Shown here piece after piece: positions 37,054 to 58,438 of a stretch of 64,000 bases of DNA (within the stretch, counting starts at the first letter, position 1; every line of letters begins with the position of its first letter). The notes beneath the pieces are model-generated. The model was not told the DNA's origin. It did not search any database and was given only the letters and a program-made list of their open reading frames with translations. A program made the position numbers and the translations under genes. Location of the stretch: the NCBI GenBank assembly GCA_949297785.1, contig CASFTW010000015.1:1-64000 (forward strand), read 5' to 3'. Source of the stretch: an uncultured Spirochaetales bacterium. Its GTDB lineage: Bacteria; Spirochaetota; Spirochaetia; Sphaerochaetales; Sphaerochaetaceae.

Positions 37054-37125
37054 GGGCGGTTAACTCAGCGGGAGAGTGCCACCTTGACGTGGTGGAAGTC
37101 ATAGGTTCAAACCCTATACCGCCCA
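37054..37125 (+). tRNA. tRNA-Val (anticodon GAC)
   Basis: A full cloverleaf: acceptor GGGCGGT pairs with ACCGCCC, D-arm ACTC/GAGT, anticodon arm CCACC/GGTGG with loop TTGACGT (anticodon GAC), T-arm ATAGG/CCTAT with loop TTCAAAC, discriminator A. CCA is not encoded. The 3' part is duplicated at 58409-58438, showing that this gene is the integration site of the mobile element. The copy here stays functional because the element supplies an identical 3' end. Confidence 0.95.
37096..37125 (+). repeat. Left attachment repeat (attL core)
   Basis: The last 30 nt of the tRNA gene (AAGTCATAGG...ACCGCCCA) are identical to 58409-58438. The similarity extends imperfectly another 12 nt into the anticodon arm (10 of 12). 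Confidence 0.93.
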
Positions 37126-37127
37126 CT

Positions 37128-37276: not shown

Positions 37277-38512
37277 ATGGTTAGATTTTCGCTTTATAAG
37301 CGTCATCTTTCCGGAGGCGTATATTATTACGTCCGTTTCTGGAATCCTGAGAAGAAGAGCTATGATGCCGGAATAAGCATAGAGACTCTCAGGGCAAAAC
37401 TCGGTGATGACAGTATCAGAAGGATTGGAACAAGAAGTGCAGCTGCCGCTATTGCTGTCAGAGCTTACGAGGAAGGACTTACGAAGAAGGATAAGAAATC
37501 TCCTAACTTCATTGAGTATGTCCTTAACTTCTGGGACTTCGATAATTCATCATATGTCAAGTTGAAGAACAAGACCAGGAAGAACAGTATCGGTCGCGAT
37601 CACTGCCTCAATATGCTTGGAACCTTCAAACGGAATTTTATGCCAAGAATCAATCCATCCTTGAAGCTTTCAGAGATTACCCAGAGCGATATCGAAGCTG
37701 TTATTGTATCGCTCATCGATGAAGGCAAGATTTCCGAAGCTACAATAAACAAAGTCATCCTCTCTGTTCAGAAGCCCATCAATGAAGCATTCTCACGAGG
37801 AATGATAAAGGTAAATCCGATGCAGAACATCAGCATGCTTCAGAGAAACCAGAAGGACAGAGGTATTCCTACAAAGAGAGAAGTCGAAGCAGTCCTTGAG
37901 TATCTGAGAAAAGAGGGATTTGCAGGACGGATCAGCATGAAGATATATCTCGCTGTTGCGCTTGCCGCCACAGCTGGTATGAGACAAGGAGAAGTGCGTG
38001 CCCTGAGAAAAGAAACAGTCGAGTTCGTTGAGAATAATCTTGAGTATGAAGACCAGGCGATAATCACCGTCGGCGAAAGCTATGCCAAGCTGGATGGTTT
38101 TAAGTCTACGAAGGGAAAGAGAGTCAGGCATGTTCCTGTATCAAAGGCACTCGCAGAAGAGCTCATAAGGATGGCAGATTCGAATCCCTATGGTAATGGT
38201 CTTGTGTTCTGGTCTGAATCCTCTGCTGAAGCTCCTATGGCTGCAAGCTATCTTCTCAAGTATTACTATGCAGCTCTTGCATCTGTCGGTATCACTGAGG
38301 AGAAGAGAAAGGAAAGGAACATAGACTTTCATTCTCTCAGGCATTTCTTCAATTCGATGCTCCGTGGTCAGATTGATGACAGCAATCTACGTCTCATCGT
38401 AGGTCATCAGAGCGAAAGAATGAGCGACAACTATACGCATGAAGTTAGGGAAAGGCTTCTTCAGATTGGCAAGATTTCGAGCAACATCATTGTCTTCCCG
38501 AAATCATCTTGA
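37277..38512 (+). CDS. int: Tyrosine-family site-specific integrase
   Basis: A 411-aa phage-type integrase. The N-terminal third is a likely arm-binding and core-binding region; the catalytic domain spans residues ~190-400. Catalytic residues seen: Arg in AGMRQGEVRAL, Lys further on, HSLRHFF (HxxR), the second His in LIVGHQSERM, and the nucleophile Tyr in SDNYTHEV. It lies 151 bp inside the left end, reading inwards, as usual for tRNA-targeting elements. The SD GAGGAGG is strong but can be sequestered in a hairpin. Confidence 0.95.
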   Translation: MVRFSLYKRHLSGGVYYYVRFWNPEKKSYDAGISIETLRAKLGDDSIRRIGTRSAAAAIAVRAYEEGLTKKDKKSPNFIEYVLNFWDFDNSSYVKLKNKTRKNSIGRDHCLNMLGTFKRNFMPRINPSLKLSEITQSDIEAVIVSLIDEGKISEATINKVILSVQKPINEAFSRGMIKVNPMQNISMLQRNQKDRGIPTKREVEAVLEYLRKEGFAGRISMKIYLAVALAATAGMRQGEVRALRKETVEFVENNLEYEDQAIITVGESYAKLDGFKSTKGKRVRHVPVSKALAEELIRMADSNPYGNGLVFWSESSAEAPMAASYLLKYYYAALASVGITEEKRKERNIDFHSLRHFFNSMLRGQIDDSNLRLIVGHQSERMSDNYTHEVRERLLQIGKISSNIIVFPKSS

Positions 38513-40400: not shown

Positions 40401-41528
40401 ATGCAAGGAAAAACCATTGATATCCATCTCATACATGGTAACGAGTATTTCAAGAAGAAACAATCTCAGAAATGGCTCATAAAAAACTGGATTCCGGAAC
40501 GTGGTATCGGAATGCTCTATGGCGATTCTGCTACCGGCAAGACTTTCATAGCTCTCGATTTGATGCTCTCCATCTCAACAGGCCAGGCAAAATGGTTTGG
40601 AAGCAGGATTGATGATGAGAGACGCTCTGTCGTGTATCTATGCGGAGAAGGTGCAGACGGCAATGCCCAGAGAATCGGAGCTTGGACAAAAGCAAAGAAC
40701 AACGAAACTGAAGATACTGGCAACTTTTATGTTATTGAGGACGAGTTCAATCTCGATAATACACTCAATACTGAAGCTCTCATCAGGGCTATAAAAGCGA
40801 AGGTTAATTTAGATCCGTCATTCATTGTCATAGATACACTCAACTGCTATTTCTCAGGAAATGAGAATGATGCTACAAGTGCACGTCTCTTCAACTTCTC
40901 CTGCAAGAAGCTCAGTAAGGAGTTTGATGCATTTGTCCTGATTATCCACCACACAGGAAAGAACAGGGATTATAAAGGTGAAGCAAGAGGTAGCAGTGCA
41001 TTCTTCGGTGCGATGGACATATCAATCATCGCGTCAATTGTCAGAGACAATATCATCTCTCTGAAAGTGAATAAACAGAAGAACGGCAAGCTTCCTGAAG
41101 AGCTTCTTCTCTCTTCTGAGGTTATCACTCTCGATACATGGGATATGGATTCTGACGGTAACTATCCATCAAGCCTTGTATTCATAAGAGCAGAGAAATC
41201 CTTCTATGAAGGAATCGAAAAGGATAAGGAATTGCTGATTCGTATTCTTCAGAAGACAAGAGTGGAAGAAATCTCTTTGAATCAAGCAAAGGAGGCGATG
41301 AGGGCTCTCGGATTCTCATCAGATACAATCTACAACACATTCTACAGAGGACGGAGCAATTTCCTCTCTCGGCTTGTCAAAGCAGGAATTGCAGAAGAGG
41401 ACCACGGCATCTTCAGAGTTCTGGATAGAGAGATTGTCAGGTCAATAGAGAAAATGTCGTCACATCCCTCCTCCCCTATGGGGAGAGGTGTGACGACGTC
41501 AGGTAATACGGAGGAAGGAGATGACTGA
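40401..41528 (+). CDS. RepA-like AAA ATPase (AAA_25)
   Basis: A 375-aa protein related to the hexameric helicase RepA of mobilisable plasmids. Walker A is YGDSATGKTFIALD, Walker B FIVIDTLNCYF, then IIHHTGKN and RGSSAFFGAMD, matching the RepA/AAA_25 layout. The C-terminal third has a winged-helix feel. Together with the Toprim gene that overlaps its end by 8 nt it likely replicates the excised element. The start lacks a direct SD and follows a large stem structure. Confidence 0.88.
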   Translation: MQGKTIDIHLIHGNEYFKKKQSQKWLIKNWIPERGIGMLYGDSATGKTFIALDLMLSISTGQAKWFGSRIDDERRSVVYLCGEGADGNAQRIGAWTKAKNNETEDTGNFYVIEDEFNLDNTLNTEALIRAIKAKVNLDPSFIVIDTLNCYFSGNENDATSARLFNFSCKKLSKEFDAFVLIIHHTGKNRDYKGEARGSSAFFGAMDISIIASIVRDNIISLKVNKQKNGKLPEELLLSSEVITLDTWDMDSDGNYPSSLVFIRAEKSFYEGIEKDKELLIRILQKTRVEEISLNQAKEAMRALGFSSDTIYNTFYRGRSNFLSRLVKAGIAEEDHGIFRVLDREIVRSIEKMSSHPSSPMGRGVTTSGNTEEGDD

Positions 41529-42570
41529 TTTCAAGGTTATCAATGCATTTCTCTCTGATTATCTCTACTCATCCGGCATGCTTGATTTCCCCAGAGATAA
41601 TGACCGGGCAAGATACCCACGAGGAATACACTGTTATGTACGTTGTCCTATCTGTGGAGCGAAGACCTCAACTGAAATCATAAAGGGAACAAGACGTTTC
41701 AAAAGCTGGCAATGCGATCATCTTTCAAGCTCAAGTCCTTTTGATTACTTCATGCTCTCTTGTGGTATTGAAGAGCCCTCAGAGGCAATAAGACGAGTTG
41801 AAGAACTGAGGAATGGAAGAATCGTACCTTTTGAAGAAAAGCATTCAGCCAATTTCCATCAAGATGATGAATCAGAAGCCCTGAGAAAGAAGAATCTTGA
41901 GCTTGCAGAGAGTGTCTTCAGCAATCGTGATAATGAGCTCACAGCAAGTTATCTGAAGCTCAGGGGCATTGATTACAGTCTGCTTCCAGAAGAAGTACGG
42001 AGTGATATCGCATATACAACCCGGCTTGAACAGATAAGCCAGTCTTCAGGCAAAGTCTTTCATGTCTCTGGGATGCTCTTCAGGAACAGATATCGTGATG
42101 AGGTTTCCTATACTCTCAGGAAGACTGAAAAAGGAAGCTATGTCAGAAATGGATTCAGAGTCCTTCAGATTGGAAAGATTCTTCCGTTCGGATTATCTGG
42201 AACATCTGAATCAAGAGTAGTGGCTATCACAGAAGGTGCTTTCGATTGTCTGTCGCTTTACACAGCTGGATTGCCAGCTATCTCCATCTCAGGGGTGGCA
42301 AACGTGAGAAAAGTTCCATTATATCTTCCATCGTGCTGCACTGATGTTGTCATTGTTCTTGATAACGATGAGGCAGGAATGGTGGCAACATCAGAACTCG
42401 GAGAAATTCTTAAAGCATCAAAGTGGAACTTTCATATTCTCCATATTGAGGAAGGAAAGGATGTGAATGAGTGGATCCAGAGAAAATCACAGGGGCTTCT
42501 GACCTCTGTAAAGAAAATAATCAAGAAGGTGACAGACTATGAAGAAGATAGTTGTCGGAATTCGTATTGA
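41521..42570 (+). CDS. Toprim-domain primase-like protein
   Basis: A 349-aa protein. The N-terminus has a zinc-ribbon-like part (CYVRCPICGAKT ... WQCDHL), as in CHC2-type primases. The Toprim domain spans residues ~235-320: AITEGAFDCLSLYTAG carries the catalytic Glu and VVIVLDNDEAG the acidic pair. Such proteins act as primase or DnaG-like factors in mobile elements. It overlaps repA and the following ribbon-helix-helix gene, so the three are one operon. Confidence 0.87.
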   Translation: MTDFKVINAFLSDYLYSSGMLDFPRDNDRARYPRGIHCYVRCPICGAKTSTEIIKGTRRFKSWQCDHLSSSSPFDYFMLSCGIEEPSEAIRRVEELRNGRIVPFEEKHSANFHQDDESEALRKKNLELAESVFSNRDNELTASYLKLRGIDYSLLPEEVRSDIAYTTRLEQISQSSGKVFHVSGMLFRNRYRDEVSYTLRKTEKGSYVRNGFRVLQIGKILPFGLSGTSESRVVAITEGAFDCLSLYTAGLPAISISGVANVRKVPLYLPSCCTDVVIVLDNDEAGMVATSELGEILKASKWNFHILHIEEGKDVNEWIQRKSQGLLTSVKKIIKKVTDYEEDSCRNSY

Positions 42571-43037: not shown

Positions 43038-45224
43038 CTATTTGACAGGAATATTTGAAAGCATATCAATCAATTCATTCTCGGATTTAAGCTTCCTTTC
43101 TTGTTTGTCATTTATGCAATAGATACTCCTTTCCTCACCTACATTATTCCATTCATTGTTATAGTATTCATCCAATGTAATAATCTTTCCTGTTGAAATT
43201 AGATAAAAGGTTTTATTTTTATATTTGAATCGAGTATAGTTCACACCACTATACCATTCTCCCAAAATAACCAAATGAGATATAGAGGAATCTGTACCGT
43301 TAGAAATACCATCGGCATCTATTAATGTGTAATACCCCTCATCAAGGTTTACTCCTCTATCATGCATTATCTTAAAGAAACGTGTATTAAGTTTGTTTTC
43401 AATAATATTTTCTTCTTCAGAAAACCACCCTCCGGCATCCCAATAGATGACATTGTTACAATGATATTTATGAAAACAAGGATGTCCATTAGGCCATTTC
43501 AGAGAATATTTTTCGCTATCCCATTGTTGAAACATCCATTTTATAAACCAGTCATTCTTTACTAAAGATGATTTTACCGCCAAAAAGAACCCGTCTGTTT
43601 CTTCTATTTCAATCTCATTAAGGGCATCTTCATCGGTTGCAGACAATAATCTGCTCACAAAGCATCTGTTATCATCAGTGTTAGCCTTTGCAAAGATCTC
43701 ACTTCTCCAATAGTTTCTGGATGCATCGAAGAAATAATTTTGTCCCCACCTCAGTGTGGAAAGCTTGATATATGCCTTTGCAACGACAACCCTATAGTCT
43801 TCGTTTAGCCCATTTTCAGTAAACCAAATTCCGAAGCTTTTCAATCTATTTGTGAACTCATTCCATGTATCATCAAAAAAGAGGAAATCTATTCTTCCAT
43901 CGGCAAAGGCTGTACTTTCAGCTTTCTCAATATCTTCCTTTTTTACATCTTTGTTCTTTATTGCAATAGCTTTTGTTCTTTCTTCCGCATACTGGGGAAT
44001 AGCACTATCTTTTTTACTATCATCACTTGCAAGATAGGATATGATTTCATTTGCTTTTGTATGAAGCTTGAAAATCAATTCAAGAGCTGATTCTGGCTCA
44101 CTTACATTCCATATGATATTAGCGCAAAATCTCATCCAGTCTTTCATCTGATCCACAGAAAAACTGTCACCAGCTGTAAGCAGATAAGAAAAAAGCAATG
44201 ATTTTTCTTTCTGGCCTTTTTTATGACATTCATTCATCTGTGGCTTTTTTGTATATACAGGACAAGTGTCCATAAAGTTATTCTGATATTTTTTTAAATC
44301 AAAATTTTTATCCCCCATAGCACTAAAGAGTTTTTCCAATGCTTTTACATAACCATCATCACCCATGGCTTTAAATGCTACATAGGCAGAAGAAGGAACC
44401 AAATCAGGCTCATAAAAATTAATTCTTTCTTTGTTTCCACTCCTTTTGTTCTCAATCATGGAGAAAGCGTCAAACATTATGCTAATGAGTCCCATAAAAT
44501 ATTCTTCATATTTCTCATGGTTGGCTCTAAAAAATTCCACGGCTATCGCATCTATACTCTTTGCTTGTTTTTCGTCTCCTTTTCCAAACCAGGATGATTT
44601 GAATCTTTCCAGTGAAGTCAGCCTCTTGCCCCTAGAATTCATCTTCCAGTAGATATCAGTTGAAAGCGAAATATCAGAAGGAATATAGAATACAATAGAG
44701 TTAAGTTTTTCTATCTCTTTTTCTGAAAGTGAAAAGCTTTGAATTTTCTCTCTTATAGCTTTTTTCATTTCCCGCATACCTTTTACAGAAGGATTTGATG
44801 AGTCATTCTTGTCTTCATTGCTTCTAATGCAGGATACGCAATAGGCCTCAGCTTCTGGCCTGTCGGCATATCTGAAATTTTCCAATAGCAATTCAGCATA
44901 CATTCCTTGTTCTCGACACAGCTCAGCATAAATCAGAAAGAGTGTGGTAAGACGCTGCTGCCCGTCAAATGGGAAGAACTCATTTCTGTCATTAACCCTT
45001 CCATAGATGAAATCAAGCTCCATTTTTTTCTTTGATTCATCTTTAAGAAACTGGAAAATATCATTAAGGAACATTTCTCTGACAAATTCAGAATGTTTAT
45101 CGCATCTGCCTTGTGCATATTCTCTCTGAAAATCAGGTATAACTATCTTACATTTCCTTATAATGTCTATGAGACTGACTGGTTCATTATTTCTAAAAAA
45201 AATCAACTCTGCAGTTATCAACAT
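43038..45224 (-). CDS. DUF262 protein without HNH domain
   Basis: A 728-aa protein. The N-terminal DUF262 domain is clear: IPDFQREYAQG, then FFPFDGQQRLTTLFLIY, then KMNSRGKRLTSLERFK. DUF262 belongs to the ParB/Srx-like NTP-binding fold used by GmrSD restriction enzymes, SspE and RloF. No DUF1524 HNH motif is seen in the C-terminal 450 residues, which are unassigned. It overlaps the upstream DUF262-DUF1524 gene by 32 nt, so the two probably work together. A role in anti-phage defence is inferred from the family and the setting. No SD is visible at the ATG. Confidence 0.85.
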   Translation of the reverse strand: MLITAELIFFRNNEPVSLIDIIRKCKIVIPDFQREYAQGRCDKHSEFVREMFLNDIFQFLKDESKKKMELDFIYGRVNDRNEFFPFDGQQRLTTLFLIYAELCREQGMYAELLLENFRYADRPEAEAYCVSCIRSNEDKNDSSNPSVKGMREMKKAIREKIQSFSLSEKEIEKLNSIVFYIPSDISLSTDIYWKMNSRGKRLTSLERFKSSWFGKGDEKQAKSIDAIAVEFFRANHEKYEEYFMGLISIMFDAFSMIENKRSGNKERINFYEPDLVPSSAYVAFKAMGDDGYVKALEKLFSAMGDKNFDLKKYQNNFMDTCPVYTKKPQMNECHKKGQKEKSLLFSYLLTAGDSFSVDQMKDWMRFCANIIWNVSEPESALELIFKLHTKANEIISYLASDDSKKDSAIPQYAEERTKAIAIKNKDVKKEDIEKAESTAFADGRIDFLFFDDTWNEFTNRLKSFGIWFTENGLNEDYRVVVAKAYIKLSTLRWGQNYFFDASRNYWRSEIFAKANTDDNRCFVSRLLSATDEDALNEIEIEETDGFFLAVKSSLVKNDWFIKWMFQQWDSEKYSLKWPNGHPCFHKYHCNNVIYWDAGGWFSEEENIIENKLNTRFFKIMHDRGVNLDEGYYTLIDADGISNGTDSSISHLVILGEWYSGVNYTRFKYKNKTFYLISTGKIITLDEYYNNEWNNVGEERSIYCINDKQERKLKSENELIDMLSNIPVK

Positions 45225-46818
45225 AACTTGTTTTCTTAATCGATTCTTCCAAGAATGTTTTTATTCTTACTTTGATTTCTTCGAGATACTTATCACACTC
45301 ATTCTTGAGCCAGAGCTCTCTATCCTCTGCAAGCGTGTAAGCATACAATGTGCCTTCAAACAGTTTTCTCCTCTCATCTGAATCTTTTAGTTTATCATCT
45401 AGCTTGAGGAGCTTATCCTTAACAGATGCATTGTTAAACGACGAATTCTGATTATGCTCAAGTAATACTAGGTTTCCAATTCCATTGATCCAGTTATCGA
45501 TCGTTGCATCGCTAGATACAAAAGTTCCTGTCTTTTTATCGAATTCCTGAGCTTGATCTCTTAAATCATATAGTAAGTTCTGGTATTCAAATTGATTGTG
45601 CTCAGACATGTATTTTTCTTTTGCTTTCTGAAGCAAAGTACAATCAATCTGATTTATTTGTTCTTCAAGTTCCTTTATTTCCTTTTCATTGAGCTGTACT
45701 TCGTTTTTTGCATGTATATGATCAAGAGTCCATCCACTGTTTCTTCTTACTTCCTGATATGTTTTAAAATCAAAGCGTGAATCTCTATTATTATAGAATG
45801 TCAGATTAAACAACAAAAGAATATTTTCAATCTTATCGTGATTGTCATAATAGTTTAGTTGTTCGAAAGATTCCAAATCTCCAACAACATTTTTTATTTC
45901 AAGATTTAGATCCTTATTAACAAGGGCTACAAGAAACTCATACTGATCAGTCCTGTTTTTACGATTAATAAGAAATCCAATTCTGTTATACGTATCAATG
46001 TCGTTATAGCAAGACTTCAATGCAGTAAATAAAGAATAGAGTTTATCAAATATATCTTTTGCAGAATGTTTTTCTGAAAGAGAAGAGAAAACATAGTTCT
46101 TATCTTTTTCCCAATTATTTTCAATTGCTCTTCTGTTTTTCTTATCGCCTGAAATTATTATCTCAACCAGTTCTGCAAGATAATCCATACGCGTTGCATA
46201 ATATCTTGGTGACTCTGGCTCAGAATTGATAAAGCAGAAGAAGAAATCATCTTCTAACAGCTTCTCCATTTCATTCCATTTGTCTCTTACATCCTCATAA
46301 GGAAGGGATGTGAAAAGCCATGCCTTGAGAAGCTCTGCAGAAGATAATGGAATCTTTCCTTCATTTACTCTGGTGAAAATTTTCCTAACTTCATCTTCAT
46401 CCCCTTCAACTATATAGCTGATGAAAAATGATCCTCTTACTTTCTGCATAAAACCGAGGCATTCTTCAGTGCCAAGCGATGACTTAAAATCATCAATCTG
46501 TTTTCTTGCCTTTTCTATATTATCTTTATCTATCTCATCGTGTGAGAAATTCTCAAATTGCTTGGTATCACCCAAGATTAGAAGAATAGTAGTCAATCTC
46601 TGTTGCCCATCAACTACATCATATAATTTATTATCTTTGTCCTTCTCACATAGAACCAAAGGCTGCAATGAATAATCTGTTTCCGATTCCTTGATATCCT
46701 TTAAAAGCTTTTTAACTTCGTTATCTGCTCTCCATCGATATCCTCTCTGATAAGAACGTGGAATAGCAAAATTATAATCTTTTAACTCAGTAATAGGCAG
46801 TTTATGTATTTGGGACAT
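45193..46818 (-). CDS. GmrSD-like DUF262-DUF1524 nuclease
   Basis: A 541-aa protein. The N-terminal DUF262 domain has IPRSYQRGYRWR, YDVVDGQQRLTTILLIL and RVNEGKIPLSSAELLKAW. The C-terminal part has DUF1524 HNH features: TLDHIHAKNE as the His-containing motif and GIGNLVLLEHNQNSSFNN before the end. GmrSD-type enzymes cut modified phage DNA after NTP-dependent activation; SspE acts in phosphorothioate-based defence. Neither partner system is here. AAAGGAG lies just before the ATG and a promoter is visible at 46848-46876. Confidence 0.88.
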   Translation of the reverse strand: MSQIHKLPITELKDYNFAIPRSYQRGYRWRADNEVKKLLKDIKESETDYSLQPLVLCEKDKDNKLYDVVDGQQRLTTILLILGDTKQFENFSHDEIDKDNIEKARKQIDDFKSSLGTEECLGFMQKVRGSFFISYIVEGDEDEVRKIFTRVNEGKIPLSSAELLKAWLFTSLPYEDVRDKWNEMEKLLEDDFFFCFINSEPESPRYYATRMDYLAELVEIIISGDKKNRRAIENNWEKDKNYVFSSLSEKHSAKDIFDKLYSLFTALKSCYNDIDTYNRIGFLINRKNRTDQYEFLVALVNKDLNLEIKNVVGDLESFEQLNYYDNHDKIENILLLFNLTFYNNRDSRFDFKTYQEVRRNSGWTLDHIHAKNEVQLNEKEIKELEEQINQIDCTLLQKAKEKYMSEHNQFEYQNLLYDLRDQAQEFDKKTGTFVSSDATIDNWINGIGNLVLLEHNQNSSFNNASVKDKLLKLDDKLKDSDERRKLFEGTLYAYTLAEDRELWLKNECDKYLEEIKVRIKTFLEESIKKTSYVDNCRVDFF

Positions 46819-46892: not shown

Positions 46893-48839
46893 TCATGAGA
46901 TAATTGTAGAGGATGTACAATCACATGAATAGTTTGATTTTTTATCCTGATATCTCTGAATCACATTAACAATCTCTTTTCTTACATCTGAATTCCTTAT
47001 CTTGGATAGCGCCTCAAGAATCTGTGGCATTTCATCTGGCCTGACATAGCCTCCTTTCCCCAGATATCTGATTGCTCCAAGATTTCTTGCCTCTAATGCA
47101 AGAAGAAAAGGGCTTTTTCCATCTTTGCCTAATGCAGTAAGAAATGACTTGTCGTTAATAGAGTCGAATACGTGCCAGTCTTCCTCAAAGAAATGCAATC
47201 CCCAATTTTGGTCCGCAGCTAATTCACATACTGCATTATTTTCTGTATTCAAAACGTCAGTATCAGCTCCATTTTCTAGAAGGAGATTAAATACTGACAT
47301 TTTGTATGGGCTCAGTGATTCAACTAAGGGACATCTACCAAAAATATCTTTCTTGTTTAGGTCTACCCCTCTTTCAAACATCTTCCTATAGAAATTAACA
47401 TCCGTTATATCTGCTATTATCGCTTGAAGTAACGGCGTAACTCCTTGAGGGTTCACAAAATCAGGGCCAACATAATTCAGCAGTTTAAATATCTGAGTAT
47501 CAACTAATTGACCTTTCTTTTCATCATGTCCGACAATTTCTAACCATTTACAGATTAACTGCATCAGCAGTGCCCCTGCCTCTGCCTTCTGAGAATCGAT
47601 TCCAATCTCTGTTGATAGTTTGCCATTCCCAATAAATAAATACTTTTCATCATTTGTCATCAGCCTATATGGAATCAATAAATCATAAATCAGCCATGAA
47701 GGTGAAATATCTCCTGAACGATCCCACAAGAACTCATGAAAAATATTGTGTTCACCAAAATGATAGTCTTCGGGGGATGATTTATCCAATACTTTCTTGA
47801 AACACTTTGGGAAGAGATTAAGAGCACGTACGGCATATGCCAGAATACAATTACGATTATCTGTATTCAAAGAGAATACTTCATCTGGCATGCATTTCGA
47901 GATTCTTTCAAAGTAAGAACAAAACATATCGTCAAGCTCTCTGATAGACTCAATGGATGGATTTGGAACCAGATTGCTGACAAGCCTTGAAAACCGTCCT
48001 ATTCCTTCGAGGAAATGCAACATCATCATATATAAATCTTTTATGGTAAAATCTGAGATTCTGCTTTCCAGTAAGCTGCATAGATTATCAAATGTATGGA
48101 AGAAAACTTGTGTTTTACTATAGAAAATAATCTCTGGCCTATCAGAAATGAACGCATTAAAATGCAATCCTTGCCTGACAAGATATTCAACTACGCTATA
48201 TTGGCATTCCATAACCGCAATATCCAGAATGCTGTTGTTTTTGTCATAGCCCCTTACTCTATAATTCTTTGCATTTTCCAGACCAATCCATTGAACGAAT
48301 TCTGTTAATTCAGATGAACAGTTCTGAAAGTAAGCATAGACAATTCCATCCAGAGATTTTAATTCCCTGACATTGTCAAGTACGGCAGCTGGTAAAGCAA
48401 TCCTACCATCATATCCGAGGAGGAAAAGCTGATCATAATCGTAGGGTTCCAGATCCAGATAATCCCTCTCGTCAGATGATATAATGGTGCCATTTTTATT
48501 ACTATTGGACTCATTACACAATGACTTATACCGTATCCCTGAAGCGTCCATTTCTTTTAGATAAATATCATTATCTGAATCTTTCAGAGCCAGTAGGATA
48601 CATATATCAACATCGGAGCTTGTTGTGGAATTGAATCTTATATGGAGATTCTTGTACTCATGGGAAACCAGCTGCTTCGGAGATAGTCCATTCAATTCTT
48701 TTATTTTTACTTCATATCCAAAGAACTTCTTATATTTGCAATCACAGTAAAATAGAAAAAGCTTATTCTCGTGAATATGCAAAAAAACCCTACCTTTAGA
48801 AGATATTGAAAGAGAAGTATAATCGTCAGTCTTATTCAT
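46893..48839 (-). CDS. Ankyrin-repeat protein A
   Basis: A 648-aa protein, second of two ankyrin genes. The N-terminal ~180 residues look beta-rich and are unassigned. Weak ankyrin-like units follow (NSILDIAVMECQYSVVEYLV); the clearest ones are near residues 470-560 (GVTPLLQAIIADITDVNFYRK, CPLVESLSPYKMSVFNLLLE). The last 65 residues match the end of protein B (GKSPFLLALEARNLGAIRYL with the same spacing), so the two are paralogues. It shares an ATGA overlap with protein B. There is no signal peptide. A role in defence or toxin control is inferred from the WYL gene in front and the setting. Confidence 0.85.
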   Translation of the reverse strand: MNKTDDYTSLSISSKGRVFLHIHENKLFLFYCDCKYKKFFGYEVKIKELNGLSPKQLVSHEYKNLHIRFNSTTSSDVDICILLALKDSDNDIYLKEMDASGIRYKSLCNESNSNKNGTIISSDERDYLDLEPYDYDQLFLLGYDGRIALPAAVLDNVRELKSLDGIVYAYFQNCSSELTEFVQWIGLENAKNYRVRGYDKNNSILDIAVMECQYSVVEYLVRQGLHFNAFISDRPEIIFYSKTQVFFHTFDNLCSLLESRISDFTIKDLYMMMLHFLEGIGRFSRLVSNLVPNPSIESIRELDDMFCSYFERISKCMPDEVFSLNTDNRNCILAYAVRALNLFPKCFKKVLDKSSPEDYHFGEHNIFHEFLWDRSGDISPSWLIYDLLIPYRLMTNDEKYLFIGNGKLSTEIGIDSQKAEAGALLMQLICKWLEIVGHDEKKGQLVDTQIFKLLNYVGPDFVNPQGVTPLLQAIIADITDVNFYRKMFERGVDLNKKDIFGRCPLVESLSPYKMSVFNLLLENGADTDVLNTENNAVCELAADQNWGLHFFEEDWHVFDSINDKSFLTALGKDGKSPFLLALEARNLGAIRYLGKGGYVRPDEMPQILEALSKIRNSDVRKEIVNVIQRYQDKKSNYSCDCTSSTIIS

Positions 48840-50941
48840 TTTTCCCTCCTTTTTTTTACACTTGAATACAGATTCTCCAATTCCTCACGCATTGATTTTG
48901 TATTCACCCTGTCGATCTGCTTCCGGATGTATTCCATGTCAGAATCCTGTACATAGCCGTTATTCATTAGGAACCTTATCGCCGTCAAATTCATATATTT
49001 GAACGCTGTCATGACTGGTGTGAAACCATAGTCGTCAGACAAGAAGAAAGCTTTCTTGCCCTTTGAGGTTCCAATGATTTTCCAGCCTTCCTCATCAAAT
49101 CTGAACGAACGAGCAGCGACATGAATGGCAGTTTCCCCGATCTTGTTCTGGATTGCCACATCAATTCCATGATTGATAAGAAAGAAAATCTTCTTGTTGT
49201 TTTCCCAATTGTCCCAAGATGACTGAATAGCATACATCAGAGCAGTATTTCCCGCCCAATCTATCGCATTGATATCGATGCCTGCTTTCAATATGTCATC
49301 AAAAAGCTCGGGCTCGAACCTGTAACTGAGGAGATGCATCAGAACATTTCTACCATCATTCCTGAAGATAGCTTTTTGAGGATTTACACAGTCCTTCAAA
49401 AGAACAATAAGGATTCTCTTGAAAACCTCTTTCACATACCCACAGTCAAAACAGACAGCATCAGCGACTGCAGGAATATACTCATATCTATTATGCCCCA
49501 TCCACTCTTTTGCCCGATTGACAATTCCACTATGGAAGTAAGCGGAACAGAATACACTTGTGCCATTTATTGAATCTTCACTTACTCCAGCAGTCATCAA
49601 CATTTCTGCGACTTCCTTGTCTGTACCTTCCAAATGTCGATGTGCATTATTTCCATTACCATCAATAAGCCAGGGATCTTTCGTTAATTCAATAATCGTC
49701 TTATATAGCTTTGGAAGAAAATATCTCCTATGCAGGATTTCGCTTGCATACATGAGCAATGTCTTTCCATAGGCATCACGATATGAAAACACCTCTTCTG
49801 GAAAGAATGCAGTCAATCTCTTGAATTCTGAGCAGAATTTCTCATCTGCATCTTCCAGCAATTTGTTCTGATCACTATTCCGTGGGCGATGCAGCAGATA
49901 ACGACCGCTCTCTTCACATTCAGTTGTATATCTGAGAAATGAAATAGCTATATAGAAAAGCTCCTTTACACCTGCTTTGTAACCATTTTCCAGTAGCCAG
50001 CAAATCTTATTGAGGCTTTCTGGATCCATAGAATCTGATGCCAGTGCGGCTAGTCCTAATCCCTCATCTTCCTCGTCATCTATACACGAATAGGTTCTGT
50101 ACATGTCTCCATACCCCAACAAAAAAGAAACTATTTCATCCATGGAATCCGGATTGGAGTCAATTGCAATTCTAAGCAGAGATTCCCTTCCAGGCATAAT
50201 AGGCCTCTTATTTTCCGGATATCCAATTCTGTCTAAGAATTTCTTTATGATTTCCAGATTCCTTGTCCTGATGAAATACTCTGACAGTTCCTGCCATTCG
50301 TCTCTTCTGAGAGACTCTTTTACTTCATTGTCTTCAAGAACAGAAAGCAAAAAAGAAGAGAATGCGTCAGCACCCGGCTGTAAGATTATATGCTCAATGA
50401 CTATGCAATCATCCCAATTCTTTTCCCACTGCTGTCCGTTTTCAGGAGTATCAATGAGCAGGAATCTGAGATTATTTTCTTCACCGAGGAACTGTCTAAT
50501 CTGTTTCTTTTCATATTGCCCCAGAGCATTGCCATCAATAATGAAAAATCTGTTATATGGTTCGTTCTGCATCAAAGAGATGCCATCAACTATACCGCAT
50601 CTCTCTGCCCTCGGGAAATGATACAAACCAGTTTCTTCTGTTACAAATACAATATCAAGATTCTCAAACATCATGACGGACACAGCTGCCAAGACAGCGG
50701 AAGGCCAATAATCTGGGGATATCATTATCCTCTCTTTCTTGTCTTTATAAAAAAACCAGTAATACGTTCTGTTGTAGTAACTCGTGATACTGTATTGGAT
50801 ATCACCATCTTTTAATGCGACACGCATGCTCCAATTCTGAGCGTCTTCATATATCCCACAAAATGGTTCACGGGCAAGTTGCTGTGCATAATTAATGGTA
50901 ATTCGATTAGTCCAGTCAGATATATAGTTTCCTTTGTTCAT
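48836..50941 (-). CDS. Ankyrin-repeat protein B with possible degenerate P-loop region
   Basis: A 701-aa protein. Residues ~60-200 contain alternating strand and helix patterns (ERIMISPDYWPSAVLAAVS, LDIVFVTEE, RFFIIDGNALG, LRFLLIDTPEN) that recall a worn-out FtsK/HerA-like ATPase fold without a real Walker A; this is my inference. Ankyrin units follow from ~245 on, with good ones near 400 and 560-640 (GNTALMYAIQSSWDNWENNK, IGETAIHVAARSF). It lies 48 bp after the WYL regulator and overlaps protein A by 4 nt, so the three genes form an operon. Confidence 0.84.
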   Translation of the reverse strand: MNKGNYISDWTNRITINYAQQLAREPFCGIYEDAQNWSMRVALKDGDIQYSITSYYNRTYYWFFYKDKKERIMISPDYWPSAVLAAVSVMMFENLDIVFVTEETGLYHFPRAERCGIVDGISLMQNEPYNRFFIIDGNALGQYEKKQIRQFLGEENNLRFLLIDTPENGQQWEKNWDDCIVIEHIILQPGADAFSSFLLSVLEDNEVKESLRRDEWQELSEYFIRTRNLEIIKKFLDRIGYPENKRPIMPGRESLLRIAIDSNPDSMDEIVSFLLGYGDMYRTYSCIDDEEDEGLGLAALASDSMDPESLNKICWLLENGYKAGVKELFYIAISFLRYTTECEESGRYLLHRPRNSDQNKLLEDADEKFCSEFKRLTAFFPEEVFSYRDAYGKTLLMYASEILHRRYFLPKLYKTIIELTKDPWLIDGNGNNAHRHLEGTDKEVAEMLMTAGVSEDSINGTSVFCSAYFHSGIVNRAKEWMGHNRYEYIPAVADAVCFDCGYVKEVFKRILIVLLKDCVNPQKAIFRNDGRNVLMHLLSYRFEPELFDDILKAGIDINAIDWAGNTALMYAIQSSWDNWENNKKIFFLINHGIDVAIQNKIGETAIHVAARSFRFDEEGWKIIGTSKGKKAFFLSDDYGFTPVMTAFKYMNLTAIRFLMNNGYVQDSDMEYIRKQIDRVNTKSMREELENLYSSVKKRREK

Positions 50942-50989: not shown

Positions 50990-51991
50990 TTATTTCTGGA
51001 ATGTCTGCAGCATAGTCTCAAGTTCTTCTTTCACTTTTTCCCTCAACCATTCTGGCTTGATGACAGTCGCACTTGATCCCAGTGACATAATCCATTTTAG
51101 AAGACCGTACGAACTAGCCGTTTTAAGCGTGAACTGATAGCTTCCGTCTTCCTGCTGATTGAATGTGACACTCTTTGGCCATGCTTTCTGAATCTCATAC
51201 CATCCCTGATACTCATCTATTAGGACTTCTGCGATGAACGGATCTTCAGTCTGGTAGAATGGGAAAGGATCCTCAAAATCATTGATATGTTCTGGCTCAG
51301 GGTATTTTTCATGCCTGAGCTTTACTAATTTCTTGATTCTTGATAATGCCAACAGTTGCCTCTGTCCATAGTTGTTGAGAACCTCCGCATAGACTGCACC
51401 ATCCTGTACAATAACCTTTAACGGGTAGATATCATATTCCACATCACACTCTGAGTTCCTGCTTTCATAAACTACATGACATTTGATTCTCTTCTCTGAT
51501 GCTTCAAGAAGGATAAGAAGTGTTTTGAAGTATTCTGGAGAAAGCTTGAAGAAAGAGCCAAACTCTGAAAACCGGGGATTGATTTCAGTCTTTGTATTCG
51601 GATTTATCACCATCCTCAACCTGGAAATAAAATCAGCACCACACATCTCCATAAGCGGAGACGTTGAGGATACTGTTTCCAAGACAAAGTTAAGGAAACG
51701 GATGTCATCTTCGCTCAGAACTTCGCTGACAATGCCACTCTTCCAGCGAGCAGCCGCATCAGACTCAATCTTGTAAAGCATCTTCCTGCTTCCATCACTT
51801 GATTTCTCCGTGTAATATGCAAAACCCATCTCATCCAGAGTCTCAAGCACATTGAAAGCCGAAGAGCGGTTGTTGACTCCAAGCATGTCCATTATTTCAT
51901 ATATCGTGCAGCCCCTTTCTTCCCTTTCGGTTATCAAAGATGCAACGGCAAACACCTTGGCAAATCGAGACCAGACTTTTTCTTCTTTCAT
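50990..51991 (-). CDS. WYL-domain transcriptional regulator
   Basis: A 333-aa regulator. The N-terminal winged helix (TIYEIMDMLGVNNRSSAFNVLETL) is followed by a WYL-type sensor near residues 170-230 (CDVEYDIYPLKVIVQDGAVYAEVL) and a C-terminal WCX-like extension. GAGGTG lies 6 nt before the ATG at 51991; the frame extends to 52024 without an SD. WYL proteins often control phage-defence operons and bind nucleic-acid ligands. It heads the operon with ankyrin proteins B and A and is divergent from the ankyrin/pseudo-FtsK gene, so it likely controls both directions. Confidence 0.9.
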   Translation of the reverse strand: MKEEKVWSRFAKVFAVASLITEREERGCTIYEIMDMLGVNNRSSAFNVLETLDEMGFAYYTEKSSDGSRKMLYKIESDAAARWKSGIVSEVLSEDDIRFLNFVLETVSSTSPLMEMCGADFISRLRMVINPNTKTEINPRFSEFGSFFKLSPEYFKTLLILLEASEKRIKCHVVYESRNSECDVEYDIYPLKVIVQDGAVYAEVLNNYGQRQLLALSRIKKLVKLRHEKYPEPEHINDFEDPFPFYQTEDPFIAEVLIDEYQGWYEIQKAWPKSVTFNQQEDGSYQFTLKTASSYGLLKWIMSLGSSATVIKPEWLREKVKEELETMLQTFQK

Positions 51992-52029
51992 CTTTATCAC
52001 CTCATGTGAAAGATTATCGCACAACTGTA

Positions 52030-52059
52030 CAGGATTTTAAACACTTATTGTTTATCCTG
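52030..52059. promoter_or_regulatory. Divergent control region with inverted repeat
   Basis: CAGGAT (52030-52035) and ATCCTG (52054-52059) are complementary arms 18 nt apart in the 73-bp gap between the WYL gene and the ankyrin/pseudo-FtsK gene. This is the best candidate for the WYL protein's binding site. Promoter elements here are not clear. Confidence 0.4.
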
Positions 52060-52064
52060 AGACC

Positions 52065-54023
52065 ATGAACAAAGAAATAGAATTGTTTTACCTTGACAGA
52101 ATCGATGATGATCAGCTGCCAGGAGATTTCATCAGAGAAGCCCTGATAACCGGAATAAGATGCGATAATGCCGAACTTGTGAAAAAGGCAGCGGGAGAAA
52201 AACTCATTCAGGGAAGCTTCTATGGCTATTCTTCACCACTGGAATTTGCCATTAATGAGATGGCTTCACATGAAGTGATTGAGACTCTGGTGAAGGCAGG
52301 ATATGAGCTATCGAAACCCTGTCATGACCTTGCGCCGTTTAATGGCTCACCGCAAGAAATTGTAAAAATGTGGATGGAGACCAATGGGAAAACAAAGGAG
52401 GAAGCCTTGCAGCTTCTGGCTGGTGATATCGGCTACTTCTTTCACGTGATAAGGACAGACTATTCCTGTTACAGGATTACATATGATGTGGACTCTGAAG
52501 ACAGATACAAGCCTTGCTTCTGGAATTATCTTGATGAATGGATGGCAGGATTTCTCAGGCTTCTGGCAGATGAGAATGAATCTGCCATTATAGACTCCTA
52601 CTTTTGCAGGGGCATCATGGAGAATGTTGAATTCAAGAAAGCGTTAGGCACTCTTTTTGAGTTGTTCGGACAAACCTTCAGCAACGATGATCTCATCTGG
52701 TTCATCAATATTGCTATCAGCCATGACAACGAATATGCATTTGCAAAACTGGTTGAACATTATCCTTCTCTGATAAAAGAAGTGAATTGCTATCCGTCTT
52801 CAAGCAAGAAGATTCTCTCTGCAATCTTTGAGGCAGGACTTCTGATACCTGGAACAGAAGAAGGATTCGATGCTTTCATCCCACGCATCGCATACGGAGA
52901 GATTGAAAAAGATATCCTGACAGCAATTGTTCATCCTTCATATGCATCACATATAACAGAAGAAGGGAAAACGCCCTTGATGTATGCAGTCGAGAATGAT
53001 GATTTCCCTGTCGAGCTGTACAAGCTCCTCATTACATCATCCAGTGATGTCAATATTCAGGACGAGGATGGGCAGACCGCACTGCACTACATGGCAAAGA
53101 CCGATTATCCCGAATGCATAGAGAACCTTCTGGAACTGGGAGCAGATCCATTCATCACTGATAACAAAGGAAACAATATCCTTCATGTCCTTGCAGAAAA
53201 CAAGGAAATGCTTTCAATCGATATTCTTCGTGATTGCGTCTCACTGCTTCCCAAAAAGTTACTCACCATGGAGAACAGTCAGGGAGTAACACCTGTTGAT
53301 CTGTTTTTCCAAAAACTCACAGGTACAGAGCAAGAACCTTACAAGAAACTCGCTTTCACAGACTTTCTTGACCAGTATCTTGCCTCTCCAGATTCCTTGA
53401 AAGGAAACATTCTGATAGGTGGGGCTGATAACGAAACACGATTCAAGCTTCTTTCTATGGTGAGGCAACATATCATAAAGCGACTCAGAGTCAGGAAAAC
53501 AATCTTCGGCGTGATTGCTGAGAGATCAGAAAAAACTATAGTCAGACAACTTGAAATGCTTGTTGACGGTATACTCGGAGCCAAGCTTCAGCCAAATGGA
53601 AAACCCCGTTTCTATTTGGTAATCATCAATGAAATAGGTGATTGCCAGAGTGAGGAATTAAGCAGACGATTTGAAACTTCCTTAAAAAGGCTGGAAGAAA
53701 AGGATAATGTTCTCATTGTTGCTACTACAAAACTGAGTTCTGATGATGTGATCACAGATGTAGTCAAACGGGCCTTTCCTTATCGAATCACAACATTGCA
53801 TTCCAGCGACATAAGCAGTGAGGTTTTCCTTGGCATTGATGATGCTGCATATATCAGCAAGGATGAAGTTCTCATCAAGGGTTTTGAAGATAGTCTCCTG
53901 TTAAGCAATCTCGAATCAGAAGAAAAACCAAGCGAGAAAAAAGATGAAGATTCCATCGTTATTGCTCAAGCCGAGAGAATCCTGAACAAGCACTTGGCTG
54001 CATTCAAGGAGCTTGCAAAATGA
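52065..54023 (+). CDS. Ankyrin-repeat protein C with degenerate FtsK-like ATPase domain
   Basis: A 652-aa protein. Residues ~30-440 are helical with clear ankyrin units at ~300-385 (GKTPLMYAVENDDFPVELYK, GQTALHYMAKTDYPECIENL, GNNILHVLAENKEM). Residues ~445-606 match the C-terminal half of the FtsK/SpoIIIE motor: NILIGGADNETRF takes the place of Walker A (no GKS/T), FYLVIINEIGD the place of Walker B with Asn for Asp, and ATTKLSSDDVITDVV, then PYRITTLHSSDISSEVF, align with the ATQRPS...DVITGLIK...SSKIDSRTIL region. ATP hydrolysis is therefore unlikely. It overlaps the Doc gene by 4 nt and holds the position where an antitoxin would be expected. The SD is weak. Confidence 0.86.
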   Translation: MNKEIELFYLDRIDDDQLPGDFIREALITGIRCDNAELVKKAAGEKLIQGSFYGYSSPLEFAINEMASHEVIETLVKAGYELSKPCHDLAPFNGSPQEIVKMWMETNGKTKEEALQLLAGDIGYFFHVIRTDYSCYRITYDVDSEDRYKPCFWNYLDEWMAGFLRLLADENESAIIDSYFCRGIMENVEFKKALGTLFELFGQTFSNDDLIWFINIAISHDNEYAFAKLVEHYPSLIKEVNCYPSSSKKILSAIFEAGLLIPGTEEGFDAFIPRIAYGEIEKDILTAIVHPSYASHITEEGKTPLMYAVENDDFPVELYKLLITSSSDVNIQDEDGQTALHYMAKTDYPECIENLLELGADPFITDNKGNNILHVLAENKEMLSIDILRDCVSLLPKKLLTMENSQGVTPVDLFFQKLTGTEQEPYKKLAFTDFLDQYLASPDSLKGNILIGGADNETRFKLLSMVRQHIIKRLRVRKTIFGVIAERSEKTIVRQLEMLVDGILGAKLQPNGKPRFYLVIINEIGDCQSEELSRRFETSLKRLEEKDNVLIVATTKLSSDDVITDVVKRAFPYRITTLHSSDISSEVFLGIDDAAYISKDEVLIKGFEDSLLLSNLESEEKPSEKKDEDSIVIAQAERILNKHLAAFKELAK

Positions 54024-54403
54024 TCAGGCTGACAAAAGATCAGGTTCTTTTAATATACGGAATGCTTATCCAGAAGACCGGAGGCTCTCATGGTGTGTTG
54101 AATGAATCGCTGATGGACTCCGCCATCAACAACATCTGGCAGACATTTGATGGTGTGGAACTATATCCAACGATGGAAGAAAAAGGTGCAAGGCTTGGGT
54201 ACTCTCTTGTCAGAAATCACTCATTTGCAGATGGGAACAAGAGAATCGGGATTCTTGCAATGCTGGTTTTCTTCGCAATCAATAATGCAGAAATAAGATG
54301 CGAAGATGCAGATATCGTGGAACTCGGCCTTTCCCTTGCATCTGGAACAATGGATTATCCTTCTCTCTTTGATTGGGTGAAGAAGCACACTTCTATCTGC
54401 TAA
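54020..54403 (+). CDS. Doc/Fic-type toxin
   Basis: A 127-aa death-on-curing protein, almost exactly the size of P1 Doc. The Fic motif HSFADGNKRIG (residues 67-77) is complete, with His67 and the GNKR anion-binding loop, so it should be active. Doc toxins phosphorylate EF-Tu; other Fic proteins transfer AMP. No Phd-like antitoxin gene adjoins it; its ATG overlaps the stop of the ankyrin/pseudo-FtsK gene, so that protein is the most likely partner. Possibly it restrains or targets the toxin. Confidence 0.92.
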   Translation: MIRLTKDQVLLIYGMLIQKTGGSHGVLNESLMDSAINNIWQTFDGVELYPTMEEKGARLGYSLVRNHSFADGNKRIGILAMLVFFAINNAEIRCEDADIVELGLSLASGTMDYPSLFDWVKKHTSIC

Positions 54404-54452
54404 CTACGCAAATCTGTATTGGAAAAAATTCTCATTTTTATTGGAGGTTATT

Positions 54453-55430
54453 ATGAGTGTTGGAAAGATAATGGAATACGACTCCTGGCTTAACAATGAG
54501 AGATTACGTCTTATTGCATTAGGCAGAGCCAAAGAAAAGGAGGTAGGCAAAAAGCTCGGAGAGCTTTTTTCTACGGTACTTATTACAAGGAGATTCAGCA
54601 AAGCTGGAGCACACAGAGCAGTTGCTGGGTATTATTTAAAGGATGAAAAAACAATAACAATTAATCAAAGAGTCTTTAGAGAAGGACGCGTTTATGCTGA
54701 TGAAGTAATGCTTCATGAGCTTGCGCATGGTCTTGACCGTGAAACAGAAGGGTACACAGAAAGATTCACTATTCACGATGAAAGATTTATCACTGCAGCA
54801 AAGACTTTAGGTGTTGATGTAGCACACTATATTAAAAGCGCCAGACTCAAGAATGAAACTGAAAAGTTTGAAAAGGAGAGAAGAGCGAATTATATTCCCC
54901 CAGAATTTTCTCCACTCCCGGATGACAGGAATAACTGTTACCAGTATTTCCATGAGTCAAAACATCCTTCATTGATCTGCAGAAATGTGTTTGAAATGAT
55001 GCGTGCCTATGCTGATATCTATGGTGACTGGAAAAAGGATTACTATAAAGGAGGCAAATACGTGATGTGTGGCTGGGGACCCCGCGAAAATATGGAAATG
55101 GCCCATAATCTGTTTCCAGATCTGGACTGTGCGGTGCGTAAACTGTCCAGAAAAATCAGACGGGATTTTGAGGTGGGCACAGATGGAATAATTGTGGGCC
55201 TCAGGTATGGATTTATTTCATATTTGAAAGACCTTGGCTTCAGACGTGCCATGAATTACGATTTCGCTCGAGTAGAAGGAATGAAAGAATGTCTTCAGGA
55301 AAAAGTTGCATTTTATACTTGTGTTTCTGTTGCTGGTTTCTGGAAAGGCTTTGAGGAAGGACCTCATCTGGCAGAAGGGATGATAAGAAAATACGGCAGA
55401 CCGAATGACAACACCCCTTTCATCTGTTAG
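54453..55430 (+). CDS. SprT-like HExxH metalloprotein
   Basis: A 325-aa protein. VMLHELAHGLD is an HExxH zinc motif near residue 85, and the pattern H-x4-F-x6-LG that follows (IHDERFITAAKTLG) is that of SprT-like proteases, with a third His ligand. The C-terminal ~190 residues are unassigned. GGAGG lies 5 nt before the ATG at 54453. SprT-like enzymes in eukaryotes cut DNA-protein crosslinks; in mobile elements their role is not clear. A hairpin with a T run lies inside its coding start (54549-54570). Confidence 0.82.
   Translation: MSVGKIMEYDSWLNNERLRLIALGRAKEKEVGKKLGELFSTVLITRRFSKAGAHRAVAGYYLKDEKTITINQRVFREGRVYADEVMLHELAHGLDRETEGYTERFTIHDERFITAAKTLGVDVAHYIKSARLKNETEKFEKERRANYIPPEFSPLPDDRNNCYQYFHESKHPSLICRNVFEMMRAYADIYGDWKKDYYKGGKYVMCGWGPRENMEMAHNLFPDLDCAVRKLSRKIRRDFEVGTDGIIVGLRYGFISYLKDLGFRRAMNYDFARVEGMKECLQEKVAFYTCVSVAGFWKGFEEGPHLAEGMIRKYGRPNDNTPFIC
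54549..54570 (+). terminator. Terminator-like hairpin inside the SprT-like gene
   Basis: AAAAAGCTC, GGA, GAGCTTTTTT, about 9 bp and a T run, at codons 33-39 of the gene starting at 54453. It may act as a partial terminator for the upstream Doc transcript or be chance; the stem has only four G/C pairs on each side. Confidence 0.35.
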
Positions 55431-55479: not shown

Positions 55480-55731
55480 ATGGCAAACTATTATTGCAAG
55501 TATTGTGGTCAGAAGTTTTCAAGTGTGAATTCTCTTACATCTCACAATTGTCCACGACACCCCAATGGGACATTTAAAGGTAACCATGAACTGTATGAAG
55601 GAAGTGAAAAGTCAAAATACACATGTAAATACTGCGGACAGATTTTTTCTTCTATCAGCAGCATGACCGATCATAACTGTCCAAGGCATCCTGATGGAAC
55701 ATTTAAAGGAAAACATTCTCCAGCGTTGTAA
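55480..55731 (+). CDS. Small protein with two zinc-finger repeats
   Basis: An 83-aa protein made of two near-identical units of ~41 residues, each with CKYCGQ, then SSxxSxTxHNCPRHPxGTFKG. The CxxC plus HxCxxH arrangement is a C2H2-like zinc finger. GGAGGT lies 5 nt before the ATG. It follows the SprT-like gene by 49 bp and may bind DNA, RNA or protein for that gene's product. Similar small fingers occur in gut bacteria; function unknown. Confidence 0.85.
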   Translation: MANYYCKYCGQKFSSVNSLTSHNCPRHPNGTFKGNHELYEGSEKSKYTCKYCGQIFSSISSMTDHNCPRHPDGTFKGKHSPAL

Positions 55732-58408: not shown

Positions 58409-58438
58409 AAGTCATAGGTTCAAACCCTATACCGCCCA
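58409..58438 (+). repeat. Right attachment repeat (attR core), displaced tRNA-Val 3' end
   Basis: Thirty nt identical to the 3' end of tRNA-Val at 37096-37125. Only the T-arm and acceptor half are present, so this is not a second tRNA. It marks the right end of the element. Confidence 0.93.

Follow-up and report, generated by a model that had tools for sequence, protein, structure and literature searches.

What restrains a Doc toxin whose gene follows that of a large ankyrin-repeat protein? The question is raised by a locus in a 64,000-nt stretch of DNA (referred to as the window; contig CASFTW010000015.1, positions 1 to 64,000) from an uncultured Spirochaetales bacterium. The source assembly is a 2.2-Mb draft (95% complete). 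The Doc (Fic-fold) toxin gene (127 aa, 54020..54403, + strand) overlaps by 4 nt the preceding gene, which encodes a 652-aa protein with ankyrin repeats, a degenerate FtsK-like (pseudo-FtsK) domain and a Phd-type Doc-binding tail at its C-terminus (52065..54023, + strand; assigned from the open reading frame (ORF) list, Pfam, profiles and a hidden Markov model (HMM) of the tail). An earlier reading of this DNA, made from the letters and their translations (the sequence-only reading), had described a 652-aa ankyrin protein sharing 4 nt with a complete Doc gene, and the two ORFs, Pfam and TIGR01550 bear this out. It had also stated that the toxin has no Phd-type antitoxin, a statement that we correct here: the tail HMM and an antitoxin profile (A7) both show that the 652-aa protein itself ends in a Phd-type tail. 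Our proposal, to which we give a probability of roughly 0.6, is a composite type II antitoxin: a protein of a GmrSD/WYL island that gained a Doc-binding tail and would release Doc under the control of a sensor.

The toxin matched the Fic/Doc family PF02661 (E=3.8e-14, 53.7 bits against a 24-bit cut-off) and passed the death-on-curing model TIGR01550 (48.5 bits, cut-off 38.65). Its HxFxxGNKR motif is intact (HSFADGNKR), as had been noted before, and its best PDB match was 9vzc_A (E. faecalis Phd-Doc, E=2.5e-9). Against PADLOC it matched Fic-bearing candidates (PDC-S23, E=3.4e-19). The search for Doc homologs covered a class-wide set of 394 genomes (matches at E<=1e-6 in 97) and 139 family genomes (matches at E<=1e-20 in 28). 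Among the 39 Doc loci inspected, an ORF overlaps the toxin gene by exactly 4 nt in 37, and the two exceptions are both incomplete Docs. All 37 overlapping ORFs end in ELAK, ELAR or EMAK. Thirty-one encode ordinary proteins of 67 to 115 aa as called; a Pfam scan of six of these antitoxins found PhdYefM in five (one above and four below the cut-off) and none in the sixth, which is of the 69-aa type. The remaining six carriers are ankyrin/pseudo-FtsK proteins (L047, L048 and L049), a 227-aa pseudo-FtsK protein (genome G010), a 361-aa WYL protein (G014) and a 46-aa peptide (G286).

The tail HMM was built from the C-terminal 30 residues of each of the 31 ordinary antitoxins, and 1,848 ORFs of the window and of 16 loci were searched with it. 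It found exactly the six fusion or mini proteins (E from 1.5e-11 to 3.7e-4; the next value is 0.59). The matches sit at the C-termini, with an additional stray internal stretch in L077. In the 652-aa protein the HMM match covers aa 636–652 (E=1.2e-4), and the tail was assigned to aa 627–652 (53943..54020, + strand) with the HMM and the antitoxin profile taken together. The A7 profile, made from 12 ordinary antitoxins, gave one match in the whole genome of the window (53877–54020, E=9.1e-5); this match falls at the C-terminal end of the 652-aa protein and covers model positions 35–80 only. Up to E=10, this profile found no separate Phd besides the tail in the 95%-complete assembly, and in this respect the sequence-only reading stands. 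Because A7 matches only the C-terminus of the 652-aa protein, we take the assembly to have no separate Phd at this sensitivity and the tail to be the Phd relative. The N-terminal Phd/YefM DNA-binding domain is missing from the 652-aa protein (no PF02604 match at E<=1). By these sequence comparisons, aa 627–652 are very probably the antitoxin for Doc.

Short forms of the tail carrier were also observed. The 46-aa mini-antitoxin of G286 (L078:8721-8861, − strand) contains little beyond the tail and is flanked by an ankyrin-like protein and Doc. A Doc tail of this kind is also present in another family of the class (L064, L068, L070, L071 and L072), on antitoxins of 67 to 77 aa (called at 110 aa in L071); alignment to the Phd N-domain is poor for those of L064 and L070, and that of L064 has no PhdYefM match.

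The body of the 652-aa protein consists of two modules. Its ankyrin repeats pass the Pfam cut-offs (PF00023, E=7e-15; PF12796, E=1.2e-14), and the top-scoring Ank_2 stretch (PF12796) is at aa 305–381 (52977..53207, + strand). At E<=1, Pfam reported ankyrin families only and no Panacea domain (which we take to be DUF4065). No FtsK domain, PF01580 or other, was reported by Pfam for the single sequences scanned. The pseudo-FtsK domain (53397..53903, + strand) was delimited with a family profile, a PDB profile search and hhalign. A profile of eight relatives matched the FtsK chains 2ius, 2iuu and 2iut best (E=1.8e-10 for 2ius, up to 2.9e-10), followed by an FtsK-like coupling protein (E=2.3e-4). 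When 19 FtsK motors from relatives were compared by hhalign, the probability was 97.9 (E=4.3e-13), with a similarity over the half of the motor from Walker B to the C-terminus; against DnaB-like proteins it was 1.6. The FtsK/SpoIIIE resemblance claimed by the sequence-only reading was thus recovered by the PDB profile and by hhalign.

Eleven members of this pseudo-FtsK group were found in the 139 family genomes at E<=1.4e-25. The next profile matches, from 1.6e-17, are mostly long frames of genuine-FtsK size, and 129 of the 139 genomes have a match at E<=0.01. In the class-wide sample of 394 genomes, the single match beyond the family at E<=1e-15 (G230) has Walker A and is a genuine FtsK. All 11 members lack Walker A (GxxxxGK[ST]), which extends to the whole group the loss already read in the window from GGADNETRF (aa 452–460; 53418..53444, + strand; alignment). 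A pattern search found an Arg at a fixed place of this segment in 11/11 members; by eye it corresponds to the FtsK P-loop Lys (Arg459 in the window). The Walker B position of the window is Asn522-Glu523 (53628..53633, + strand; alignment), and it is Asp-Glu in L036 and L077. The Asn pointed out by the sequence-only reading is therefore real in the window, but it is not a family feature: judged by eye, the Walker B Asp place has Asp in eight of the 11 members, Asn in two (window and L042) and Lys in one (L078). On this sequence evidence, the pseudo-FtsK domain is a degenerate FtsK-derived motor domain. A weak PADLOC match of aa 445–589 to mad8 (E=0.0012) was not relied on. The 652-aa protein had no match among viral contigs and phages, and one match only among plasmids (11% of the query, in the ankyrin part). 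The 220-aa pseudo-FtsK protein at L144:4877-5539 has apparently shed the ankyrin part, with an N-terminus that by eye remains similar to that of the ankyrin protein.

Presence of the tail and presence of Doc coincide among these relatives. The nearest relative found at the locus is L036, on an uncultured Spirochaetales contig (CASDZV010000088.1). All four tailed pseudo-FtsK genes (the window, L036/G301, L077/G176 and L037/G010) have Doc at −4, and in L037/G010 there are two separate genes instead of one fusion. Of the seven untailed genes, none has a Doc in the available 829 to 7,969 nt downstream. Two of these seven loci have a Doc elsewhere, each with its own tail carrier (the WYL protein in G014 and the 46-aa peptide in G286). 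Linkage to Doc, expected by the sequence-only reading, is therefore seen in three other genomes (G301, G176 and G010), but 7/11 members have no Doc right behind them. A clean untailed counterpart is a 593-aa ankyrin/pseudo-FtsK fusion of G394 (L145), which is 34% identical to aa 1–605 of the window protein and stops before the tail; it is accompanied at its locus by two GmrSD genes and a WYL gene, with no Doc. A similar pair exists for the WYL protein. The G014 WYL protein (L038:551-1636) carries the tail and has an adjoining Doc, while its G176 homolog (L077:10249-11253; 61% identity over aa 1–332) stops short of the tail, with no Doc adjoining it. As judged from this alignment, the WYL protein is a second case of tail swap. 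The tail and an adjacent Doc occur together, and the ankyrin/pseudo-FtsK module can be separated from Doc. These natural pairs with and without the tail, one for ankyrin/pseudo-FtsK and one for WYL, make a tail-plugging origin of toxin-antitoxin modules directly testable.

In a tree of 36 Docs (three short ones were dropped), the four pseudo-FtsK-linked Docs form one clade (support 96/95). This clade is nested in a larger Doc group in which the other partners are mostly Phd-like. From these data the pseudo-FtsK tail graft looks like one event that is now present in two genera. The six fusion-type Docs require two changes on the best tree, and a single origin may account for them.

Amino acid identity between the window and L036 or L077 is 81–85% in the tail, 73–76% in the ankyrin repeats and 47–48% in the pseudo-FtsK domain; between L036 and L077 it is 92%, 79% and 72%, respectively. 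Since L036 and L077 share 72% in the pseudo-FtsK domain, fast change of this domain is seen on the window's side only. Nonsynonymous divergence (dN) is lower than synonymous divergence (dS) wherever dS is computable (whole gene, dN 0.17–0.25 vs dS 0.85–1.4); dS is saturated for the pseudo-FtsK domain between the window and L036, and the tail comprises 26 codons only. The fusion is maintained under purifying selection and shows no decay. The 73-nt divergent spacer between this gene and the WYL gene (51992..52064, no strand) is a probable shared promoter/operator from its identity with L036 and L077, at 80–81% (58/72 and 57/71), while third codon positions of the ankyrin/pseudo-FtsK gene are 52–53% identical in the same comparisons. 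Between L036 and L077 the corresponding values are 74% (52/70) for the spacer and 63% for third codon positions. This pattern suggests that the divergent spacer is a conserved operator.

The mechanism that we propose can be outlined as follows. The body would be an island protein made of ankyrin repeats and the pseudo-FtsK domain, of a kind that occurs elsewhere with no adjoining toxin, and the last ~25 residues would be a Phd-like Doc-binding tail without the Phd DNA-binding domain. The 4-nt overlap would couple translation to that of Doc. In E. faecalis Phd-Doc (PDB 9VZC), the C-terminal helix of Phd inserts in Doc, and E. coli Doc is stated to phosphorylate EF-Tu (PMC13034048). By analogy to the Phd-Doc structures, the tail helix would bind the Doc groove and keep Doc off EF-Tu. 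The divergent WYL regulator probably replaces the autoregulation that the absent Phd DNA-binding domain would provide. The ankyrin/pseudo-FtsK body would most likely sense or bind an infection signal or a partner; when it is engaged, destabilized or lost, Doc would be freed and translation would stop, as a backup to the GmrSD proteins. We put the gating of Doc by the body in response to a signal at even odds.

Several points weigh against the proposal of a composite, sensor-gated antitoxin. Neutralization in E. faecalis is ascribed to antitoxin-driven Doc dimerization, not to active-site closure, and this dimerization is achieved partly via Phd residues that precede the C-peptide (PMC13034048). 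The 26-aa tail alone had no match in PDB by phmmer, and the A7 profile matched YefM in its N-domain only, not in a Doc-bound tail. AlphaFold2 models from two-row shallow alignments (window and L036) had a confidence score (pLDDT) of 56.8 for the full protein and 42.7 for aa 431–652; because these models are too poor for use, the FtsK ancestry rests on sequence. The upstream regions inspected are those of the 39 best-matching Doc loci, out of a longer list with many weaker class matches. In L078 only 829 nt were available downstream for the Doc search. Three of the four tailed members share one architecture and the window protein is 63% identical to that of L036; given this, and the one supported Doc clade, the 4/4 association does not represent four independent events. 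The carrier, finally, need not be a sensor, because an inert SUMO carrier works: Phd-C fused to SUMO suffices to neutralize Doc (PMC10440598).

The SUMO result also fits the explanation by addiction instead of sensing, which we consider possible although we would not expect it. Here the tail and Doc would hitch-hike on an island gene, the body would be a stabilizing carrier, and loss of the gene or of the island would free Doc and kill or arrest the cell. The locus does lie within a ~21.3-kb element that is bounded by tRNA-Val repeats and has an integrase, and 7/11 ankyrin/pseudo-FtsK members have neither the tail nor an adjacent Doc. On the other hand, an ordinary Phd-Doc pair would serve this purpose without any fusion, and the same tail is found on two different putative regulators or sensors, pseudo-FtsK and WYL.

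A more specific idea concerns the dead motor. The pseudo-FtsK domain could be an integrated decoy, a dead copy of a DNA translocase of the host or of a mobile element, mounted on ankyrin repeats; engagement of this copy by the motor or an anti-host factor of an invader would pull the tail off Doc and arrest translation. The tail would then be a plug-in abortive-infection output that bacteria add to sensors they already have, such as pseudo-FtsK and WYL. We regard this reading as unlikely. Were the dead motor the sensor, bacteria would provide a case of the integrated decoy. A related and still somewhat less probable version makes the domain a decoy of, or a partner for, host FtsK or a phage or plasmid FtsK-type motor, with that motor or an anti-motor phage protein displacing the tail and freeing Doc. 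The domain is FtsK-derived by profile and is the most diverged large segment in both comparisons with the window (47–48%), and there is a precedent in which a fused toxin-antitoxin detects a phage protein in complex with the host cell-division protein FtsZ (PMC13423816). Against it, the domain is not the least conserved part between L036 and L077 (72% identity), and fast change fits relaxed constraint in a dead enzyme too. As to the view of the sequence-only reading that the ankyrin/pseudo-FtsK fold itself restrains Doc without any Phd-type element, the antitoxin position and the 4-nt overlap are as it described, but we find it very improbable, since a Phd-type tail is present as the likely neutralizing element and none of the seven untailed pseudo-FtsK genes directly precedes a Doc.

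The composite antitoxin can be compared with four described systems. Like Phd-Doc (TIGR01550/PF02604), it has a Doc homolog, an antitoxin gene that comes first and overlaps, and a C-terminal tail as the likely neutralizer; unlike Phd-Doc, it is without the Phd DNA-binding domain, its carrier is an ankyrin/pseudo-FtsK protein of more than 620 aa, and regulation is probably by the divergent WYL protein. The second is DocD6:PanA of Corynebacterium doosanense, in which a Panacea antitoxin carries a Phd-C tail and tail loss abolishes neutralization; linear neutralization by exchangeable elements is the authors' term for PanA/Phd-C (PMC10440598). A Phd-type tail joined linearly to an unrelated, putatively sensory domain is common to both cases, whereas the window-type carriers are ankyrin/pseudo-FtsK or WYL proteins that also exist in untailed forms and are found beside GmrSD-type genes in several genomes. 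Because grafted Phd tails are known from that work (PMC10440598), the novelty is not tail grafting but the carriers: the ankyrin/pseudo-FtsK and WYL carriers are new. Ankyrin/pseudo-FtsK or WYL proteins as Doc-tail carriers, tailed and untailed pairs, and the link to GmrSD/WYL were not found in searches of the open-licence PMC literature, in agreement with the sequence-only reading, to which this arrangement was not familiar from described Doc systems. Thirdly, the window resembles the GmrSD (BrxU) islands regulated by WYL/BrxR (PMC9122601; PMC8565348) in having GmrSD proteins and a WYL regulator in a mobile island. It adds ankyrin and pseudo-FtsK proteins and Doc, and its WYL/WCX protein is likened to BrxR by the WYL domain only. 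Compared with the FtsK/SpoIIIE motor (PF01580), finally, the pseudo-FtsK domain is similar in sequence over the half from Walker B to the C-terminus and differs in the absence of Walker A.

The WYL/WCX regulator (50990..52024, − strand; PF25583, E=5.2e-13; PF13280, E=4.8e-5) is transcribed divergently from the ankyrin/pseudo-FtsK gene, and comparison with L036 indicates the ATG at 51991 as its likelier start. It is followed in the same island by a 701-aa ankyrin protein (48836..50941, − strand; Pfam), which has a homolog in L036, and a 648-aa ankyrin protein (46893..48839, − strand; Pfam). Next are a GmrSD-type restriction protein (45193..46818, − strand; PF03235, E=1.2e-27) and a second GmrSD_N protein (43038..45224, − strand; PF03235, E=3.2e-18). 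The ~21.3-kb element that holds the Doc locus extends from 37054 to 58438. A tRNA search placed tRNA-Val at 37054–37126, and a 30-nt exact repeat of its 3' end is present at 37096–37125 and 58409–58438; a phage-type integrase was identified by Pfam at 37277–38512. AAA_25 and Toprim proteins are also encoded inside the element (40401–42570). Directly 3' of Doc is a candidate SprT-like metalloprotease (54441–55430; PF10263, E=5.7e-4, under the cut-off). No BREX families were seen among the 20 window proteins in the Pfam scan, and BREX was not sought otherwise.

Ten of the 11 pseudo-FtsK genes share their stretch with a WYL/WCX protein, which does not always adjoin them, and the eleventh gene lies at the end of a contig. 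Seven of the 11 loci contain GmrSD_N proteins; none was found among the proteins scanned in L042, L144 and L078, and L046 is a cut locus. The untailed ankyrin/pseudo-FtsK pair of G003 adjoins a C5 cytosine methylase and an NgoMIV-type restriction enzyme (L042:4457-6155), and L144 has a PD-(D/E)XK nuclease. The G006 locus (L146) contains GmrSD proteins, one of them with DUF7834, with reverse-transcriptase-like genes between them by eye. Because restriction-type genes accompany the protein in most loci, the GmrSD/WYL islands with pseudo-FtsK are probably defense islands, and the ankyrin/pseudo-FtsK protein with its GmrSD/WYL neighbors is a candidate defense module.

Two other ideas about ankyrin proteins were tried and rejected. 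A homolog of the N-terminal ankyrin part of the window protein, 425 to 435 aa long, is found in L045 (4775-6082) and its relatives L040, L041, L043 and L044, in a recurring locus whose neighbors are NUDIX-like (by eye), 91-aa, 255-aa and WYL-like (by eye) proteins. Pairing of an ankyrin paralog (G000:C22 and relatives) with a dead DnaB helicase, as which a 255-aa neighbor had been read by eye, was unsupported: this neighbor had no Pfam match, its five-row profile had no PDB match at E<=10, and hhalign against three neighboring DnaB-like proteins gave a probability of 0.4. A degenerate ATPase N-terminus in the 701-aa ankyrin protein was likewise discarded, as a two-row PDB profile gave ankyrin-type chains only among the best 60 of 259 matches.

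A small protein of 83 to 98 aa, in which two Cys/His repeats look finger-like by eye, is encoded repeatedly near pseudo-FtsK loci. Its copies are at 55480-55731 in the window and at L036:8356-8607, L077:9845-10096, L037:14438-14701, L042:6182-6478 and L144:5521-5778.

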